The notes below the pieces were generated by a model that worked only from the letters and a program-made list of their open reading frames with translations, did no database searches and was not told the DNA's origin. From NCBI GenBank assembly GCA_016936215.1, contig JAFGPL010000071.1, positions 1 through 38,553 of the forward strand: 38,553 nucleotides of DNA, read 5' to 3'. Of the stretch, positions 28,917 through 37,168 are shown in pieces; positions within the stretch are counted from its first letter, which is position 1; each line of letters begins with the position of its first letter. Source of the stretch: Bacteroidales bacterium (GTDB lineage Bacteria; Bacteroidota; Bacteroidia; Bacteroidales; UBA10428). Position numbers and translations under genes: made by a program.

Positions 28917-29696
28917 ATGAAAAGAATAGTTACAATCGTTGCATCGTTGCTGATTACGTTGGCATTAACAAATGCACAGACAAAAGATACAGATAAAATG
29001 TTTAAGGAGTTTCAGTCAACGGAATGGACTGACGTGCTCAAAGCAAAAGAAAACCTTGAGAATACGCAGGCAGGGTGCATTCCAGGGCTTATCTCATTGC
29101 TCGATGAAAATGGTGTTAAAAAACTGGTAAATTCCGGGGACCTGATTTACCCGGGTGCAGAGCGTTTTTTTGGACATGGTCAGATAATTGATTATGATAT
29201 AGATAAGGTAAATGTCAGGGCCGGCTGGCTTTTGGAAGAATTAACTTTTCAGAACTTTGGGTTCACTGGTATTCACATTAGTCCGGAAGAACTGACTGAT
29301 TATATTAAATTCAATTTTCCGAAATATTACAACAATGCAAAAAACCGCCAGTTAATTGATAAAAGTACAGATAAGGAAAAAAGAGATTTGATAAGGGACC
29401 TTAGCATTGAAGAAGCCAAAAGGTGGTGGGCTTCTGAGGGTGACGAATGGAACAGGCTCGACGCCATTGTTAATGCCCTTAAGAGCGACGATGAAAAAAG
29501 ACAAGCCAAAGCGTTGTTTTATATAAGAAACGGCAAGACAGCTTGTTCAGGGCTGACAATTGAAGTGTATAAAGCCAGGATTGAGCCAGTTGTAAAAGAA
29601 TTGTCAAAGTCACCACTGAAAAGGATTTCGGAGCAGGCAAAGCTTATTATGCTTGACACTTCTTTTGAATGGATGAAATTAAAAGCAGTTTCCTGA
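28917..29696 (+). CDS. Exported protein of unknown function
   Basis: This encodes 259 residues with a signal peptide of about 20 (MKRIVTIVASLLITLALTNA, then Q). The mature part is mostly helical and charged: FKEFQSTEWTDVLKAKENLE, a block with GWLLEELTFQNFGF, and a C-terminal stretch of Lys-rich helices that could be HEAT-like. No catalytic motif is visible. The start ATG at 28917 follows a 119-base gap after the ttcA-like gene. I do not recognise the family; it is probably periplasmic. Confidence 0.6.
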   Translation: MKRIVTIVASLLITLALTNAQTKDTDKMFKEFQSTEWTDVLKAKENLENTQAGCIPGLISLLDENGVKKLVNSGDLIYPGAERFFGHGQIIDYDIDKVNVRAGWLLEELTFQNFGFTGIHISPEELTDYIKFNFPKYYNNAKNRQLIDKSTDKEKRDLIRDLSIEEAKRWWASEGDEWNRLDAIVNALKSDDEKRQAKALFYIRNGKTACSGLTIEVYKARIEPVVKELSKSPLKRISEQAKLIMLDTSFEWMKLKAVS

Positions 29697-29760: not shown

Positions 29761-30156
29761 ATGCAGGCACATTTAAAAAGATTGATAATTATTGTAATAA
29801 TTCTTTTGAATGCAGGTATTCTTTTTGCACAAAAGGAGATTTTTTTAAGACAGATTGAATTTAAGCTTGAAAAAATCAGCGATATAGATTATGAAAACGA
29901 GTACTTCATGACCATGAAATTCAATAAAGGCGAATCATACCTGTTCAAAATCACCAATCATCTTGATAATTATGCCGGTCAGGCTGTTATTGAGATTCTT
30001 GATGCAGATAAACTGGTGATGACCAATAACCTGGGTGAAAAATATTTTGAAACTATAAATTTTGTATGCAACAAAACCGGTTTTTATGATATTCTGGTCA
30101 GGTTTAAAGACAAAAAAGTTGGCAACTGCGTAATTGATGTTAAACTGCTTCAGTAG
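29761..30156 (+). CDS. Small exported protein of unknown function
   Basis: This encodes 131 residues with a signal peptide of about 23 (MQAHLKRLIIIVIILLNAGI...FAQ). The mature 108 residues look like a small beta-sandwich: FRVKL-like alternating strands (YFMTMKFNKGESYLFKI), AVIEILDADKLVMTNN, GFYDILVRFKDKKVGNC and a terminal VIDVKLL strand. Two Cys residues could pair. The family is unknown. It resembles carrier- or emp24-like beta domains in outline only. It converges on the lipoprotein at 30219, with a shared inverted repeat between them. Confidence 0.6.
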   Translation: MQAHLKRLIIIVIILLNAGILFAQKEIFLRQIEFKLEKISDIDYENEYFMTMKFNKGESYLFKITNHLDNYAGQAVIEILDADKLVMTNNLGEKYFETINFVCNKTGFYDILVRFKDKKVGNCVIDVKLLQ

Positions 30157-30166
30157 TTTTTCTTTT

Positions 30167-30220
30167 AAGACCGGGTTGTATAACAGATCTGAAATTTTTC
30201 GGGTAATGCAATCCGGTCTT
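30167..30220. terminator. Possible bidirectional terminator between convergent genes
   Basis: AAGACCGGGTTG (30167-30178) pairs with CAATCCGGTCTT (30209-30220) with one mismatch and a 30-base loop. The right arm overlaps the stop codon of the minus-strand gene. U-rich tails are modest on both sides, so termination is likely but not certain. Confidence 0.5.
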
Positions 30221-30635
30221 AATATTTAAGCCTTGCATCAATCCTTTCGTTTACAATTACATAACACGCATCATCGCATTCACCTGTAACACGTTTCCAT
30301 TTAATGGTGGTAGCGTCAATTACATAAATTGTATCATTGCCATAAGCATATTCTGCTTTTATAGAGTACTTTTGATCAACCCTGCTGTAAAGGTATACCG
30401 GGCTTGAATAGGCTGTGTCCACCCAGTCAACTATATCCTTCTCAACCTCATCAATATAAAGTTTCCAGGGAATTTTCGTGTACTTGTCATTAAAAGTAAA
30501 ATCAATGATGAGATCAACTGAATCGGATTTGGAATCATAACATTCACTGCAATCAACACCGGCCGTGAATATTTTTTCATTACACGAAAAGAGGATTATA
30601 AAAAATGCAGCACTAATAAAATATCTCATAATCAT
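30219..30635 (-). CDS. Small lipoprotein of unknown function
   Basis: This encodes 138 residues. The signal segment ends in I-L-F-S-C (about residues 14-18), a good Bacteroidota lipobox. Soon after comes a C-S-E-C pair (about 29-32), and a second C-x-x-x-C (CDDAC) lies near the end. These four Cys residues could form disulfides or a metal site. The rest is beta-rich (VDLIIDFTF, YSIKAEYAYGNDTIYVIDA). Two ATG codons at 30635 and 30629 are possible starts. It begins 9 bases after the ankyrin-barrel gene and is probably co-transcribed with it, so the pair may work together in the envelope. The family is not recognised. Confidence 0.6.
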   Translation of the reverse strand: MIMRYFISAAFFIILFSCNEKIFTAGVDCSECYDSKSDSVDLIIDFTFNDKYTKIPWKLYIDEVEKDIVDWVDTAYSSPVYLYSRVDQKYSIKAEYAYGNDTIYVIDATTIKWKRVTGECDDACYVIVNERIDARLKY

Positions 30636-30644
30636 AGGAGTATT

Positions 30645-32042
30645 TTATAACCAATTGATATATTTAGGGAAATAAACATTTTTCTTTCTGTTGATATTAA
30701 AGCATAAAGCAAAATTAAACCTTCCGTTCCCCATCTTTTCAAGGTTGAGGTTTAAATATTCATAGAAAAATTTTACATAAAGCGGGTTATAAATCCAGTA
30801 TACTCCTATCCTGGGTACCGTGACAAACCTGGTATCTGGTTTATTTGAAGACCCGCGATAGCTTCCGAATGTAAGTGTTTCTTTCACGCCGGCAAATATT
30901 CCGTATTCGTTTGAAGAAACACGAAAAACAGCAAACCTTTTGTCCAGTCCGAGGGAATAGGCCCCGCGCCGTTCCCTGTATTGAAAATAAACATTTTCAC
31001 TTTCTTTCTCAAGCACAGCAATAGCTGTAGGCCTGAACCGGTAGTCGCCAAATAGCTCAAAATTGTATTTTTTATCAGAAATCCCGAAAGAAAATCCCCA
31101 CATAAAATCCCTGCTGTTCCAATGAATATCGCTGCCTAAAACAAATTTATCAAAGCTTGGCCTGATAATGCGGGTGGCTTGATGAAGGCGTAAAAATGCT
31201 ATGATCGAATCGTTTTTATGCTCCCGGGCAATATTGAGCGCGTTTTGAGATCCCGACACTTTTATTTCTGTGCTTGCACCTTTGGTGATTAGAAATTTCA
31301 ACATTTCCAGGTCGTTGTTTTCAACTGCCACACAAAGGGGGGTATATCCTACCTCATCTGCCCTGTTTATATCGGCCCCAAGCGCAATAAGCGTATCAGC
31401 GGCATCAATAAACCCGTTCTGTACGGCCATGTGCAGAGGTGTTCTTAACCGGGTGTCAACCGAGTTGATATCAGAACCATATGTAACAAGTAATCCGGCA
31501 ATCTCGTTCAGCCCGAGTAACGAAGCAAGCATCAGGGCATCGGTGCCGTGTATGTCTTTTTTTGTAACATCCGCCCCGTAATATAACAACATATCTGCCA
31601 TATAATAATTACCGTTTGCAACAGCCTGCATCAACGGAGTAACTTTATAATAATCTGCAAGGTTTATATCGGCGCCATTACGAATGAGGTATTCTGCTAT
31701 TTCAAGGGTATCGTTCAATACGGCAGTAATCAGGGCTGTATTGCCGTTGTCGGGTACTTTATTTATGTCAGCCCCGTTTAGCACCAATATTTTTACAACA
31801 TCAAAATGATTCCCCTGTACAGCATACATCAGCGCGGTAACCCCATTTCCAAGGGATGCATCTGCCTTGGCCCCTGCATTCAGCAATCTTAGTACTTCGT
31901 TTTTATAACCCTTATCGGCTGCGTAGATCAGGTTGTATTCCAGGTCACCCTTAATATACCCTGAGGTGTCAATTGATGTCTGTTGTCCAAAACAGAAAAC
32001 GGGACAGATTATGCCAAAAAGAATATTAATGCTGAACTTCAT
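30645..32042 (-). CDS. Ankyrin-repeat protein fused to a predicted outer-membrane beta-barrel
   Basis: This encodes 465 residues from the ATG at 32042. An in-frame TTG at 32081 lies upstream of a likely promoter and would give a poor signal peptide. A signal peptide of about 20 (MKFSINILFGIICPVFCFGQ) is followed by eight ankyrin repeats (about 30-300). Each has a T-x-L-x-x-A and G-A-D-I-N pattern, with a first and last degenerate repeat. After about 310 the sequence changes to alternating aromatic strands (YNFELFGDYRFRPTAIAVL, YVKFFYEYLNLNLEKMG) suggesting an eight-strand or larger barrel. The repeats would then face the periplasm. Ankyrin repeats mediate protein contacts; the partner is unknown. 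Confidence 0.8.
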   Translation of the reverse strand: MKFSINILFGIICPVFCFGQQTSIDTSGYIKGDLEYNLIYAADKGYKNEVLRLLNAGAKADASLGNGVTALMYAVQGNHFDVVKILVLNGADINKVPDNGNTALITAVLNDTLEIAEYLIRNGADINLADYYKVTPLMQAVANGNYYMADMLLYYGADVTKKDIHGTDALMLASLLGLNEIAGLLVTYGSDINSVDTRLRTPLHMAVQNGFIDAADTLIALGADINRADEVGYTPLCVAVENNDLEMLKFLITKGASTEIKVSGSQNALNIAREHKNDSIIAFLRLHQATRIIRPSFDKFVLGSDIHWNSRDFMWGFSFGISDKKYNFELFGDYRFRPTAIAVLEKESENVYFQYRERRGAYSLGLDKRFAVFRVSSNEYGIFAGVKETLTFGSYRGSSNKPDTRFVTVPRIGVYWIYNPLYVKFFYEYLNLNLEKMGNGRFNFALCFNINRKKNVYFPKYINWL

Positions 32043-32181: not shown

Positions 32182-34410
32182 ATGATGCAACCAGCACCCA
32201 AAAGGCTCAGAACTTTAAGCACAGCGCCAGTTTATTTCACAGCTGTTTCAACAATTCTGGGCGCTATTCTTTTTCTGCGTTTTGGATTTGCAGTTGGAAA
32301 CCTGGGGCTTCCAAGAGTTTTTCTTTTGATTATTCTCGGCCACCTGATTACCATCCCCACAGCACTTGCCATATCAGAGATTGCTACAAACCAGAGGGTA
32401 GAAGGGGGAGGGGAGTATTTCATAATTTCAAGGTCTTTTGGTCTTAATGTCGGTGCAACCATTGGTTTGGCCTTGTATCTTTCACAGGCAATCAGCGTAG
32501 CGTTTTACGTAATTGCATTTACCGAGGCCTTTGCTCCATTGTTTGAATGGATAAAAGAAAAATATCAGGTTGAATTATACCGCCAGGTAATAAGCATACC
32601 TGCTTTGCTGACATTGGCATTCGTTATCCTGAAAAAGGGTTCGAACATCGGTATAAAAACACTTTTTATTGTTGTTGCTATTTTGTTTATTTCGTTGTTA
32701 TTTTTTTTTTTAGGGAAATCATCGTATGCCGAGACGCACCAGGTAAGTTTTTTTATGCCTGGAAACAATAACACAGGTTATTCTTTTTTTACTGTTTTTG
32801 CGATATGCTTTCCTGCATTCACAGGTATGACAGCCGGGGTGGGGCTTTCGGGTGATCTTAAAAATCCCGGGAGATCAATTCCGATCGGCACCATAGCAGC
32901 CACATTTACCGGTATGGTAACCTATTTTTTTGTATCGTACAAACTTGCCATATCGGCAAGTCCCGAAGACCTTATTAACGATCAGTTTATCATGGGCAAA
33001 ATTGCATTTGCCGGGCCCGTTATTGTTCCATTAGGCCTTGCTGCCTCCACCATTTCTTCAGCCATAGGCTCTATATTGGTTGCACCGAGAACTTTGCAGG
33101 CACTTGGGGCGGACCGCTCATTGCCGTTGGGTAAATTTAACCGTTTATTGGCGCGGGGCAGGGGAGAAACGAACGAACCATTCAATGCCACCCTGCTCAC
33201 GGCAATAATTGCATTGGTTTTTGTAGCACTCGGAGATGTAAATGCTGTTGCCCAGATTATTACAATGTTTTTCATGGTAACCTATGGCTCGCTCTGCCTG
33301 ATATCTTTTCTCTATCATTTTGGTGCCGACCCTTCTTACAGACCGGTATTCAGGTCAAGATGGTATATCTCGTTAGCCGGTTTTCTCATGTGCCTCTGGC
33401 TTATGTTTAAAATAAGCACTGCATATGCCCTGGTGTCGGTGCTTATTATTACATTTCTCTATCTCTTTGTATCACATTCACATAAAGAGAGGTCAGGGAT
33501 GCAGGAGATATTTCAGGATACCATTTTTCAGCTAAGCAGGCAGTTGCAGGTATTTTTGCAAAAATCAAAGAAAACCACATCTGAGCACAAATGGAGGCCT
33601 TCTGCAATATGTATTTCTGAATCTACTTTTGAGCGGCCAAAAGCATTAAAATTAATGGACTGGATTAGTAACAAATATGGTTTTGGAACATATATTCACC
33701 TTATTCTTGATTACTATTCAAAATCTTCGTACAACAAATCAAAAGAAACACTCGCAAGGCTTATCAACCTGTCCGATGAGAAGAGCAAGGTATACATGGA
33801 TACCCTTGTTTCACCATCATATACTTCTGCAATAGCCCAAATTATTCAGCTTCCCGGAATATCAGGCATGGAAAACAATATGATGATCTTTGAATTTGAT
33901 AAGGACAATCCATCAAATCTGCAGCAGATTGCTGAAAACATACCTCTAGTAAAGGCCGGGAACCTTGATGTTTGTATATATGGAACAACAAAGAGGCTGA
34001 TCAATTACAGGCAGGGAATTCATGTATGGATCAGAAGTCATGATTTTAACAATTCCAACCTCATGATCCTTCTTAGTTATATTATTCTTGGACATCCGGA
34101 TTGGCGTAAAGGAAAAATCAAGATTTTTGACCTGTGCAGAGAAGATGATATGGAGAATACCCGCAAACAACTTACTGACCTGATTCAAACAGGGAGATTG
34201 CCGATTTCACCGGATAATGTTGAGCTTATCAAGACCGAAGAAAAAATTCATGCTAAAACGCTTATAAATTCGAAGTCTGCCGATGCAGGCCTTATTGTTA
34301 CAGGATTTCTTGAAGAGCAACTGCGTAATTATGACGAACTGTTTACCGGTTATGAAAATGTTGGCGATGTACTTTTTATAAATGCCAATGCATTGCGGGA
34401 AATAAAATAA
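32182..34410 (+). CDS. Cation-chloride cotransporter (SLC12/APC) homologue
   Basis: This encodes 742 residues. Helix 1, PVYFTAVSTILGAILFLRFGFAVG (about 16-39), is the signature of bacterial and eukaryotic CCC proteins, with the broken G-A-I-L-F-L-R-F unwound region. About 12 membrane helices run to residue 430, including SEIATNQRVEGGGEYFIISR and GLSGDLKNPGRSIPIGT. A cytoplasmic C-terminal domain (about 450-742) with two alpha/beta halves follows, as in SLC12 transporters. The likely role is Na+- and/or K+-coupled chloride movement in the inner membrane; amino-acid transport cannot be excluded by eye. It is monocistronic and divergent from the ankyrin-barrel gene. Confidence 0.85.
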   Translation: MMQPAPKRLRTLSTAPVYFTAVSTILGAILFLRFGFAVGNLGLPRVFLLIILGHLITIPTALAISEIATNQRVEGGGEYFIISRSFGLNVGATIGLALYLSQAISVAFYVIAFTEAFAPLFEWIKEKYQVELYRQVISIPALLTLAFVILKKGSNIGIKTLFIVVAILFISLLFFFLGKSSYAETHQVSFFMPGNNNTGYSFFTVFAICFPAFTGMTAGVGLSGDLKNPGRSIPIGTIAATFTGMVTYFFVSYKLAISASPEDLINDQFIMGKIAFAGPVIVPLGLAASTISSAIGSILVAPRTLQALGADRSLPLGKFNRLLARGRGETNEPFNATLLTAIIALVFVALGDVNAVAQIITMFFMVTYGSLCLISFLYHFGADPSYRPVFRSRWYISLAGFLMCLWLMFKISTAYALVSVLIITFLYLFVSHSHKERSGMQEIFQDTIFQLSRQLQVFLQKSKKTTSEHKWRPSAICISESTFERPKALKLMDWISNKYGFGTYIHLILDYYSKSSYNKSKETLARLINLSDEKSKVYMDTLVSPSYTSAIAQIIQLPGISGMENNMMIFEFDKDNPSNLQQIAENIPLVKAGNLDVCIYGTTKRLINYRQGIHVWIRSHDFNNSNLMILLSYIILGHPDWRKGKIKIFDLCREDDMENTRKQLTDLIQTGRLPISPDNVELIKTEEKIHAKTLINSKSADAGLIVTGFLEEQLRNYDELFTGYENVGDVLFINANALREIK

Positions 34411-34551: not shown

Positions 34552-35037
34552 TTGAAAAACCCGCACAATTCTGTTATTTTCATCATAGATGAAAACCGGA
34601 CATACAGGCACTTAATTCAGGAGTGCCTTAAAGTTTTCAGGAATTCCCAGTTGTTTATGTTTCAAAATCCTGATGATTGTTTGCAAACCAAAATTTTAAA
34701 GCCTGATATTATTATTACAGAGTTTAAATTCAGTAATGGAAATAAACAAGGTTTAAGCCTCCTGAATGTTTTGAAATCAAATTATCCCCGGTCAAGGGTG
34801 ATATTTTTATCATCTTACGGCAATGTAGAATCGGCCATTCAGGCAATTAAGGCTGGTGCGACAGATTATATCCTTAAAAGTAAATTTGCATTTATTAAAC
34901 TTCTGGAAAAGGTAAATACTGCCATTTCTGTCAAAGAAGCGGTTAGGAGAAACATTGCCACAAGCAGGTTACTTGTTGCCACAGCAGGAATACTGGCCAT
35001 GCTAATTTTTGGGCTTGTTTTTATCTATACTCATTAA
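34552..35037 (+). CDS. Receiver-like domain with Glu at the phospho-site and a C-terminal membrane anchor
   Basis: This encodes 161 residues. It starts at a TTG; no in-frame ATG, GTG or other TTG lies between the stop at 34528 and this codon, and the next ATG (residue 36) would remove the acidic pocket. The receiver fold is intact: D13-E14 in IIDEN, the beta-3 end ITEFKF, S87-S88 in FLSSYG, and K109 in YILKS. Numbering coincides with CheY, where position 57 is the phosphorylated Asp; here it is E57, which often mimics the phosphorylated state. Residues 140-159 (LVATAGILAMLIFGLVFIY) form one membrane helix. There is no output domain. A constitutive or scaffold role is possible. No kinase is nearby. 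Confidence 0.75.
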   Translation: MKNPHNSVIFIIDENRTYRHLIQECLKVFRNSQLFMFQNPDDCLQTKILKPDIIITEFKFSNGNKQGLSLLNVLKSNYPRSRVIFLSSYGNVESAIQAIKAGATDYILKSKFAFIKLLEKVNTAISVKEAVRRNIATSRLLVATAGILAMLIFGLVFIYTH

Positions 35038-35082: not shown

Positions 35083-35204
35083 GTGGCTGTTCTTTAAAGT
35101 TCGCAGACGAGGCGCATGAAGTCCGAAAAAAGGGAGTTTACCATGCGTAAATGACCTTTTTGAGGACGAGCACAACGAAGTATGCAGACTTTAAAGACAG
35201 CCAC
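35083..35204. repeat. Nested inverted-repeat element (about 120 bases)
   Basis: The outer arms 35083-35106 (GTGGCTGT-T-CTTTAAAGT...GCAG) and 35184-35204 match in inverted orientation with two single-base gaps. The inner arms 35121-35140 (GTCC-GA-AAAAA...TTTAC) and 35147-35166 also match imperfectly, around a CATGC centre that itself pairs with CGCATG at 35113. As RNA it would form one long, interrupted hairpin. The right arm touches the stop codon of the LysM gene (35204-35206). It looks like a non-coding dispersed palindrome, possibly also acting as a terminator between the convergent genes. Confidence 0.6.
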
Positions 35205-37168
35205 TAATTAGTTGTTAGTGGGGGTTGCAATTTTACACCATCATTAAAAAGTATTCTTTCAACTGTATAATCTTTATTAAACCTGAGATAGATCATACCT
35301 TTGTTTTCAAAACCCCCTGCCGGATTATTCTGCTTAAAGGAATAATTGTTGAGCAGCGATTTGTTTTTAATACATTGAATACAGTTATCGAGATTATTTC
35401 CATAGTACAGGTAAGATTGGATAAAATAATAGGCAATATCATAACCAAGAAAAGTAAGGTTATATCCTTTTGATTTCAGCTCCAATGGTTCGTAACCAAG
35501 GGTGTTGATTGCATTTCTTATAAACTTTTTAACTGCAATATCATTGTAATCAATATAAAATGGTGTATACAGGTGAAGGCCAAGGTTATGAAAATATTCA
35601 AGGTCAATATTGTTGAAGGTCAGCCACGCAGGTTGTCCGATTACGGTTATGTCATACATTTTTTGAAACCTGTCAAGGTGCGACAACAACTCACTCAGGT
35701 ATGCTTCATTATTGGTGGTAATGATGGCCACGTTTTTTCTGCCGTGCACAAGTGAATGTCTTAGGTTGCGAACAAGTGTATCGGAATGTCTTACCTCCTT
35801 GATTGTAAATAATGAAGAATCATTTTTATGATGCATAATGCCGGTAAAGACATTTTTCAAATCTTCGCTGTCTTTTTTATTCGTGGTATCTGCATCGTGA
35901 AAAATCAGCAGGTTGCTATGCGGGCATGCCGATGCAATTGTGGCGATTGCCTCATGTTCTGTTTCACGCGATGGGACGAACTGAAAAGCATAGGGAAAAC
36001 CTGAAAGTTGCTCAGATCGCGAATAAATTGGTGAAACGATTATAATGTTATTTGTAGAGGCAAATTTTGCAGCCAATTTGAAAGTTTCAGGAAAAACAGG
36101 CCCTATCATCAGGTCGGGTTTATTCACTTCAAGGCCTTTTAAAATGGTCTTCACCCTTGTGGTATCCCTTTCGGTATCAAAAACCCGGAGATTAATGTCC
36201 TGCCCTTTTTTACGCAGGGTATCAAGCGCCAGCAAAACACCTTCGTAAAACTCGAAATAATAATCGCCTTTTATAGTGCCGGGCCTTCTTAATGATGCAT
36301 TAACATTTGGGTCTTCAGAAATATAGCTGGTGTCTTCAATGGCCTTTTTAACTTCAAGCGTAAAGTCAGCATACAATGGCAACATCAAAACCACATTAAT
36401 GGCACGGGCCATACCAGCCTGCCTGATCGAATCGCATTGCCTTTGGCTCATTGGCAGGATATCAGGGAGTATGGGCAAAGTATCGGTAATAATGCTGATG
36501 GTATCTAACGCATATTTAGAAAACCTCGGTATTTTAATTATCATCCCTGTCTTTAAACCCCATCTGAGTTCGGGATTATGTTCAACAATGTCTGCAACCT
36601 CTACATTGTAAAATTTTGCAAGCGAATAAAGGGTATCTTTTCGCTTTACTTCGTAATAGCGATAATTCTCATAGTCCCTTATATTTTCTGCTACCTCTTT
36701 TACTACCTTCTTTTTCGGAACTTTAATGATCTGGTTTACTTTTATTCCTGTCTCAGAACCGGGATTCAGCCTGTAAATAACTTCAAGCGGCACATTATAT
36801 TTTCTTGAAAGTTGAAAAGCATTTTCACCTTTTGATACCTGGTGATAAATAAGGTCGCCTTTTTTAAGCCCCAGTTCCGCAAGAATCGTTTCCTCTGATT
36901 TTGTTTCTGCCGGAATCTTAATAACCTGGCCTGGCCGCAGTTGCTCCGGTATGAGCCCCGGGTTTTCGTTTTTAAGGTCCTGGATACTTATGCCGTATGC
37001 CTTGCATATTGAGAAAGCGGTTTGTCCCTGCTGTACTGCGTGCATGTAAAATATGCGACCGTTTACCAGTACTTTTTCTGTTGACTTCCTGATTTCTACC
37101 TGTGGTTCCTGTCCGGCAACGCTATTCAGAATTAATAAAGCCAGTATGGTATAGAGTAACTTTTTCAA
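35204..37168 (-). CDS. Exported LysM x3 / periplasmic-binding-protein-like fusion
   Basis: This encodes 654 residues with a signal peptide of about 19 (MKKLLYTILALLILNSVAG). Three LysM domains follow at about 43-86, 109-151 and 172-214, each with the G-x-x-x-F/L-S pattern and an ending in IKIP or IKVP. From about 254 to 640 is a type-1 periplasmic-binding fold (VVLMLPLYADF, then LMIGPVFPETFKLAA, NIIIVSPIYS, GYDIAYYFIQSYLY). The LysM part should bind peptidoglycan, and the C-terminal part may bind a peptide, glycan or partner protein. This layout is common in Bacteroidota, but no transport genes accompany it. The stop is TAG. Confidence 0.88.
   Translation of the reverse strand: MKKLLYTILALLILNSVAGQEPQVEIRKSTEKVLVNGRIFYMHAVQQGQTAFSICKAYGISIQDLKNENPGLIPEQLRPGQVIKIPAETKSEETILAELGLKKGDLIYHQVSKGENAFQLSRKYNVPLEVIYRLNPGSETGIKVNQIIKVPKKKVVKEVAENIRDYENYRYYEVKRKDTLYSLAKFYNVEVADIVEHNPELRWGLKTGMIIKIPRFSKYALDTISIITDTLPILPDILPMSQRQCDSIRQAGMARAINVVLMLPLYADFTLEVKKAIEDTSYISEDPNVNASLRRPGTIKGDYYFEFYEGVLLALDTLRKKGQDINLRVFDTERDTTRVKTILKGLEVNKPDLMIGPVFPETFKLAAKFASTNNIIIVSPIYSRSEQLSGFPYAFQFVPSRETEHEAIATIASACPHSNLLIFHDADTTNKKDSEDLKNVFTGIMHHKNDSSLFTIKEVRHSDTLVRNLRHSLVHGRKNVAIITTNNEAYLSELLSHLDRFQKMYDITVIGQPAWLTFNNIDLEYFHNLGLHLYTPFYIDYNDIAVKKFIRNAINTLGYEPLELKSKGYNLTFLGYDIAYYFIQSYLYYGNNLDNCIQCIKNKSLLNNYSFKQNNPAGGFENKGMIYLRFNKDYTVERILFNDGVKLQPPLTTN

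Follow-up and report, generated by a model that had tools for sequence, protein, structure and literature searches.

An ankyrin-repeat protein with a predicted outer-membrane barrel and its partner lipoprotein in the Bacteroidales

A single gene in a 38,553-nucleotide stretch of DNA from a member of the Bacteroidales (contig JAFGPL010000071.1; hereafter the window) raises the question of how an exported array of ankyrin repeats might be held in the cell envelope, and with what it might work there. A sequence-only reading of the gene had proposed a signal peptide, eight ankyrin repeats and a C-terminal outer-membrane barrel from which the repeats would hang on the periplasmic side. Our analysis leads to an answer that involves two genes rather than one. 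With a probability of about 0.57, we propose a two-protein outer-membrane complex, in which a barrel-anchored periplasmic ankyrin array is joined by a dedicated lipoprotein that cooperates with the barrel.

The gene lies on the minus strand and runs from an ATG at 32042 to a stop codon ending at 30645 (30645..32042, 465 amino acids); the ORF listing starts the frame at an upstream TTG (32081), and the ATG at 32042 is used here. The putative signal peptide spans residues 1 to about 19 (31986..32042, minus strand), with a cleavage site that we guess to lie after the motif CFG. A hydrophobic core of the signal-peptide type precedes the repeats in all 120 untruncated ORFs of the family, accompanied by a cleavage-like site in 113 and by a lipobox-like pattern in four; these are simple counts, the core being sought by a plain rule, not a trained predictor, across all of the open frame that precedes the repeats. 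The signal peptide argues against a cytoplasmic location of the protein, with which the original proposal is incompatible.

The eight ankyrin repeats occupy residues 34-286 (31185..31943, minus strand). Pfam assigns them to Ank_2 (E 1.6e-63, 211.7 bits against a cut-off of 27.3) and to Ank (133.6 bits against 21.1), and all seven Pfam families that match the 465-residue protein are ankyrin families, with their best stretches within residues 38-284. The full-length AlphaFold2 model, built on six aligned sequences (mean pLDDT 82, pTM 0.59), consists of an N-terminal helix, eight helix pairs (34-55, 70-88, 103-121, 136-154, 169-187, 202-220, 235-253 and 268-286) and then strands only, from residue 299 to 451. 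Both the number of repeats and the domain borders had thus been read correctly from the sequence, and the length of the array across the family (see below) agrees with them. The NCBIfam names that the ankyrin part attracted, mostly those of Legionella Dot/Icm effectors, of MzaA and of a TRP channel model, all score far short of their cut-offs, which we take as generic repeat similarity and not as membership. Matches in PHROGs were likewise confined to the ankyrin part and belong to families of unknown function.

What follows the repeats is a domain of strands (residues 299-451; 30690..31148, minus strand) and a C-terminal tail (residues 452-465; 30648..30689, minus strand) that AlphaFold2 models with a pLDDT below 50 and whose W464 has a weighted frequency of 0.68 across the family. 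Pfam gave no match over the C-terminal domain of the 465-residue protein, none of its outer-membrane barrel models included, and a profile of the barrel found no PDB sequence at E <= 10. When Pfam was run on 20 relatives of the barrel, four families appeared with one member each (E 0.022-0.14), among them PF17251, Pom (Protochlamydia outer membrane protein), in one relative at E 0.054. Modelled in isolation (181 residues, pLDDT 79, pTM 0.69), the domain has strands at its positions 15-24, 29-39, 44-52 plus 57-64, 67-91, 94-111, 121-134, 137-145 and 156-167, that is, eight strands if the third, which is kinked, counts as one, the third and fourth being long.

Comparison of this model with solved structures by Foldseek placed OmpA first (E 1.6e-5), followed by NspA, OmpX, Ail and PagP, and the 12 PDB entries matched at E <= 0.001 all represent outer-membrane barrels or models thereof, at modest TM-scores of 0.41-0.55 by query length. 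VIA-align gave the highest scores to the OprF barrel (Z 16.4; 131 residues, 2.9 A), NspA (Z 15.9; 143 residues, 2.8 A) and OmpA (Z 15.7; 130 residues, 2.4 A), while the best soluble barrel, a designed fluorescent one, reached Z 13.4 (108 residues, 2.1 A); further soluble barrels in the list are BcnB of Burkholderia, which we take to be a lipocalin-like protein (11.8), NHBA and a YceI-like protein (both 9.7) and TbpB (9.1). The predicted model thereby shows what characterises an OmpA-like fold, namely eight antiparallel strands and an outer-membrane barrel as the best solved match. Hydropathy also alternates along the eight strands (2.80, against 1.06 +/- 0.27 in within-strand shuffles, 0 of 5000; 120 family ORFs), as measured with strand borders trimmed by hand and by a test that is in itself blind to which face points outward. 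A soluble barrel would alternate too, and the weight therefore rests on which fold matches rank highest and on the lone barrel of genome G156 described below. From the model we favour an outer-membrane barrel, short of proof, and to that extent the C-terminal prediction of the earlier reading holds.

The same architecture had been suggested as something to look for in other genomes, and it recurs across the order, which indicates that the observation is no product of chance. Among 60 relatives (own genome included), the match extends to residue 433 or beyond in 27, and those in G046 and G058 enter the barrel and end at residues 408 and 393. Of the 393 genomes sampled from the order, 112 matched the barrel profile (alignment A2) at E <= 0.01; leaving out four fragment rows (G504, G471, G024 and G593; E 1.25e-3 to 8.5e-3, 29-58 profile positions) yields 114 rows in at least 108 of the 393 genomes, and all such counts are lower bounds, with absences that are not firm, since the genome searches score a limited set of first-look candidates (e.g. 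8 of 37). Across 395 genomes of the phylum, own genome and five of the same order included, G156 is the sole other credible match. A match in G225 (L023) was set aside as a different, OmpA/MotB-like protein by eye, and so was a row in G867, from the class of G156, that is full of stops.

The ankyrin array is of nearly constant size. Its repeat region measures 245-260 residues, i.e. the size of eight repeats, in 108 of the 120 untruncated ORFs (the truncated L115, L122, L144 and L038 being excluded for array length and conservation); four others have 186 residues, three have 221-222, and five have 239, 263, 266, 268 and 290. G484 and G585 have the 186-residue form (L172, L174, L175 and L176), with about six repeats, as an additional copy; in G058 and G480 it is the sole copy detected. 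One further locus (L153, G793:C23) carries two adjoining ankyrin-barrel genes, its lipoprotein being on a different contig. Within the array, some positions of repeats 1, 2 and 4 are more conserved than the average of their repeat, among them Y73, N at 61, Y155, M72, M151, D150 and Q76. The near-constant length would suit a fixed ligand and, taken with the conserved surface positions, may point to one specific ligand in the periplasm.

In the barrel, the most conserved residues by weighted frequency include Q354 (0.93), E357 (0.90), R337 and R359 (both 0.89), K368 (0.85) and P410 (0.82). Known even-stranded barrels have their N terminus in the periplasm; if this one does as well, R337, Q354-R359 and Y395 would lie toward the outer side. 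Conservation is higher in the predicted outer-side zone, averaging 1.65 as opposed to 1.26 bits (p 0.01, with zones drawn post hoc).

A second gene, absent from the sequence-only reading, starts 9 nt past the stop codon of the ankyrin-barrel gene and encodes a lipoprotein of 138 amino acids (30219..30635, minus strand), with its lipobox Cys18 at 30584-30582. A pattern rule finds a signal peptide with a lipobox cysteine in 109 of 115 partner ORFs, which identifies the family as lipoproteins; the six ORFs missed by the rule comprise four in which, by eye, a cysteine ends the hydrophobic run and two long, unclear frames. Among the 109 N termini, which the same rule selected, a few may be misassigned, that of L078 certainly so. 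Relatives of the partner share a DCxECY-like start and a CDxxCW/Y end, and 102 of the 109 mature sequences have five or six cysteines, the lipidated one counted, which makes two disulfides likely. Pfam, run on 37 members, matched 20 families in one or two members each, the best being PF11246 (E 2.7e-4, one member) and some others being of Fn3 or beta-sandwich type, and a lipoprotein profile found no PDB sequence at E <= 10. As for sorting signals, the accessible text of one study gives C-X-K-(D/E)2 as the surface-export signal of Bacteroidetes lipoproteins (PMC5080379). This motif occurs in 0 of the 109 partner N termini and the looser C-polar-(D/E)2 in one, while at least one acidic residue is present at +2 to +6 in 94 and at least two in 52.

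The gene pair is flanked in the window by several other genes. Convergent with the lipoprotein gene are two plus-strand ORFs (28917-29696 and 29761-30156) whose products of 259 and 131 residues begin with signal-peptide-like stretches and match no Pfam family, and ORFs of like length and order occupy the same place at two related loci (L024 and L025). On the other side, and divergent from the ankyrin-barrel gene, lies a transporter gene (32182-34410, plus strand) whose best NCBIfam match, the K-Cl cotransporter model TIGR00930 (E 4.8e-97), is below its cut-off; an ORF of similar length stands upstream in L024 (divergent) and L025 (same strand). It is followed by a plus-strand ORF (34552-35037) with a response-regulator receiver domain, matched by NtrX-type receivers of NCBIfam, that ends in a membrane-helix-like hydrophobic stretch without an output domain and is possibly a membrane-anchored lone receiver. 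On the minus strand, 35204-37168 encodes LysM repeats joined to a Pfam match to ANF_receptor, of the periplasmic-binding type (33.8 bits).

How closely do the barrel and the lipoprotein belong together? The lipoprotein profile (A7) matched at least 106 of the 393 genomes, which we take to be identical to those searched for the barrel (same handles, same counts), and by eye these matches are spread over 41 family labels. In raw genome counts that ignore kinship, and for which a Fisher test therefore gives no true probability, the lipoprotein was detected in 105 of 108 genomes with the barrel and in 1 of the 285 others, the exceptions being G058, G466 and G585 (barrel alone detected) and G598 (lipoprotein alone). 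The lipoprotein gene is downstream of the barrel gene on the same contig and strand in 84 of 106 cases, in 83 of which the gap between the matched stretches is at most 332 nt. In 21 genomes, the two are on different contigs. Of the unlinked lipoprotein loci, 20 were examined and none had a barrel ORF; the upstream neighbour of the lipoprotein was, by eye, another gene in 16 and the contig end in four. A shared neighbourhood alone does therefore not account for the pairing, and this unlinked co-occurrence is the best evidence we have to suggest that barrel and lipoprotein work together.

The unlinked loci have recurrent neighbours of their own: a UPF0047 gene in 7 of the 20 (L081, L087, L088, L090, L091, L092 and L095), a Reg_prop/Y_Y_Y gene of two-component type in four and a DUF4301 gene in four. 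The Reg_prop/Y_Y_Y set comes from families f120 and f124 and the DUF4301 set from f99, for which reason we read them as inherited gene order, and the UPF0047 set may have the same origin. A mirror-tree comparison was also tried as a pointer to the domain that tracks the lipoprotein. Partial correlations of distance matrices with the lipoprotein were 0.329 for the barrel and 0.332 for the ankyrin part over 105 pairs, 0.381 and 0.270 over the 87 linked pairs, and 0.171 and 0.541 over the 18 unlinked ones; the linked and unlinked subsets point in opposite ways, and we discarded the approach for this purpose.

The relative in G156 bears on which parts make up the core of the system. Its gene (L022, 865-278) encodes a protein of 195 amino acids that consists of a signal peptide and the barrel, without ankyrin repeats (per-genome E 1.1e-7). 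Just downstream, on the same contig and strand, is a relative of the lipoprotein (per-genome E 2.5e-9) whose ATG overlaps the barrel stop by four bases (ATGA) and which has a lipobox of its own (AAGC) before it runs off the contig end. The lipoprotein search over the 395 genomes of the phylum returned seven genomes at E <= 0.1, and at E <0.001 only the genome of the window itself and G156. In the class to which G156 belongs, 149 genomes yielded no second ankyrin-less pair; the pair is thus known from a single genome, whether counted against the 395 of the phylum or the 149 of this class. It follows that the pair of barrel and lipoprotein can occur independently of the repeats, and likely that the two form the core of the system, to which the ankyrin array is added as a periplasmic docking arm.

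Taken together, the domain architecture, the barrel fold, the co-occurrence of the lipoprotein, the gene order and the ankyrin-less pair in G156 support the two-protein complex computationally. We infer from them insertion into the membrane, a periplasmic position of the repeats, contact between barrel and lipoprotein, and a docking or scaffold role, the last in keeping with the envelope scaffold or docking platform first offered as a hypothesis. In such a complex, a barrel of the size of OmpA would anchor the eight ankyrin repeats at the periplasmic face of the outer membrane, most likely with no channel function. The lipoprotein, made of a lipid anchor and a small cysteine-rich, probably beta, domain, would bind the barrel, and the ankyrin array would extend into the periplasm and hold a specific partner there.

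OmpA carries a C-terminal peptidoglycan-binding domain. The protein described here resembles OmpA and OprF in combining an eight-stranded barrel with a soluble domain predicted to face the periplasm, and in fold (Z 15.7-16.4). It differs in that its soluble part is N-terminal and made of ankyrin repeats, whereas that of OmpA is C-terminal and binds peptidoglycan, and in sequence, with 8-12% identity in the named top matches. It does not belong to the OmpA family proper, as only a 14-residue tail, without a peptidoglycan-binding domain, follows the barrel, which also lacks a Pfam outer-membrane barrel match. Another exported ankyrin protein is AnkB of Pseudomonas aeruginosa, cited as periplasmic, ankyrin-like and needed for optimal KatB activity in the accessible text of a study that also reports an ank-katE operon in Leptospira (PMC7567364); that text does not mention a barrel for AnkB, in contrast to our protein, and the NCBIfam scan of neighbouring ORFs in the window showed no catalase. 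Ankyrin proteins are further listed, as Imm-Ank, among toxin immunity proteins in the portion of PMC3482391 at hand.

Could the ankyrin-barrel protein instead be an exporter? The accessible part of PMC5449769 describes Slam as having a periplasmic N-terminal TPR part and a C-terminal barrel predicted to be 14-stranded (DUF560), with a lipoprotein gene adjacent in about half of the Slam loci and with predicted substrates that carry an eight-stranded barrel domain of the TbpB type. As far as that text goes, N-terminal repeats, a C-terminal barrel and an adjacent lipoprotein gene are common to both systems, and the near one-to-one pairing of barrel and lipoprotein would fit a Slam-like protein that, with ankyrin in place of TPR, brings its partner lipoprotein to the cell surface. 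We nevertheless hold this to be very unlikely, as our protein matches ankyrin and no TPR families, its barrel has eight modelled strands against 14 and no DUF560 match in Pfam, and the ankyrin part is absent from G156; the partner, for its part, matches no Pfam family consistently and is virtually devoid of the two surface-signal patterns counted above, albeit with a frequently acidic N terminus. The order of parts, an N-terminal passenger and a C-terminal barrel, is also that of autotransporters, and one might imagine that the ankyrin array itself crosses the barrel to the surface. However, autotransporter translocators are 12-stranded, eight strands do not suffice for a translocation pore, and a dedicated lipoprotein is foreign to the scheme, which makes this reading highly improbable.

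Two other alternatives concern the barrel. The C-terminal domain could be an eight-stranded barrel of the soluble kind, in an entirely periplasmic protein that the lipoprotein perhaps holds. Hydropathy alternation is equally expected of such a fold, and the VIA-align list does contain soluble barrels, from the designed one and BcnB down to the YceI-like protein, NHBA and TbpB at 9-10. This soluble fold, which would have been at odds with the original prediction, is nonetheless quite unlikely, given that outer-membrane barrels rank higher in both Foldseek and VIA-align and that the relative in G156 is a signal peptide and a barrel with little else. Alternatively, the system might be an envelope sensor with the lipoprotein in or on the barrel and with ankyrin repeats that relay the signal or hold a signalling partner, on the model of RcsF, which associates with outer-membrane proteins. 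That barrel and lipoprotein look like the core, that the predicted outer-side zone, as drawn post hoc, is the more conserved, and that a Reg_prop/Y_Y_Y gene lies near the unlinked lipoprotein in four of 20 loci would all agree with sensing; but those four loci come from two families and may reflect inherited gene order, and clustering showed no such regulator in the remaining 16. We regard a sensor as unlikely, and retain the anchored array with its cooperating lipoprotein as the preferred reading.

In the accessible part of the open-licence literature, we found no description of a fusion between ankyrin repeats and an outer-membrane barrel. What is new here is the conserved arrangement, in two genes, of folds that are themselves known. 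More tentatively, and with less than even odds in our estimate, the pair may be an undescribed two-protein outer-membrane machine of the Bacteroidota, whose eight-repeat arm in the Bacteroidales would form a ligand-specific bridge from the outer membrane to the periplasm, possibly with a new way of placing or gating a lipoprotein. The near one-to-one pairing over 393 genomes, which persists even when the genes are apart, makes this a testable two-gene system, and one that could show how the envelope uses an ankyrin array and what part a dedicated lipoprotein plays beside a small barrel.
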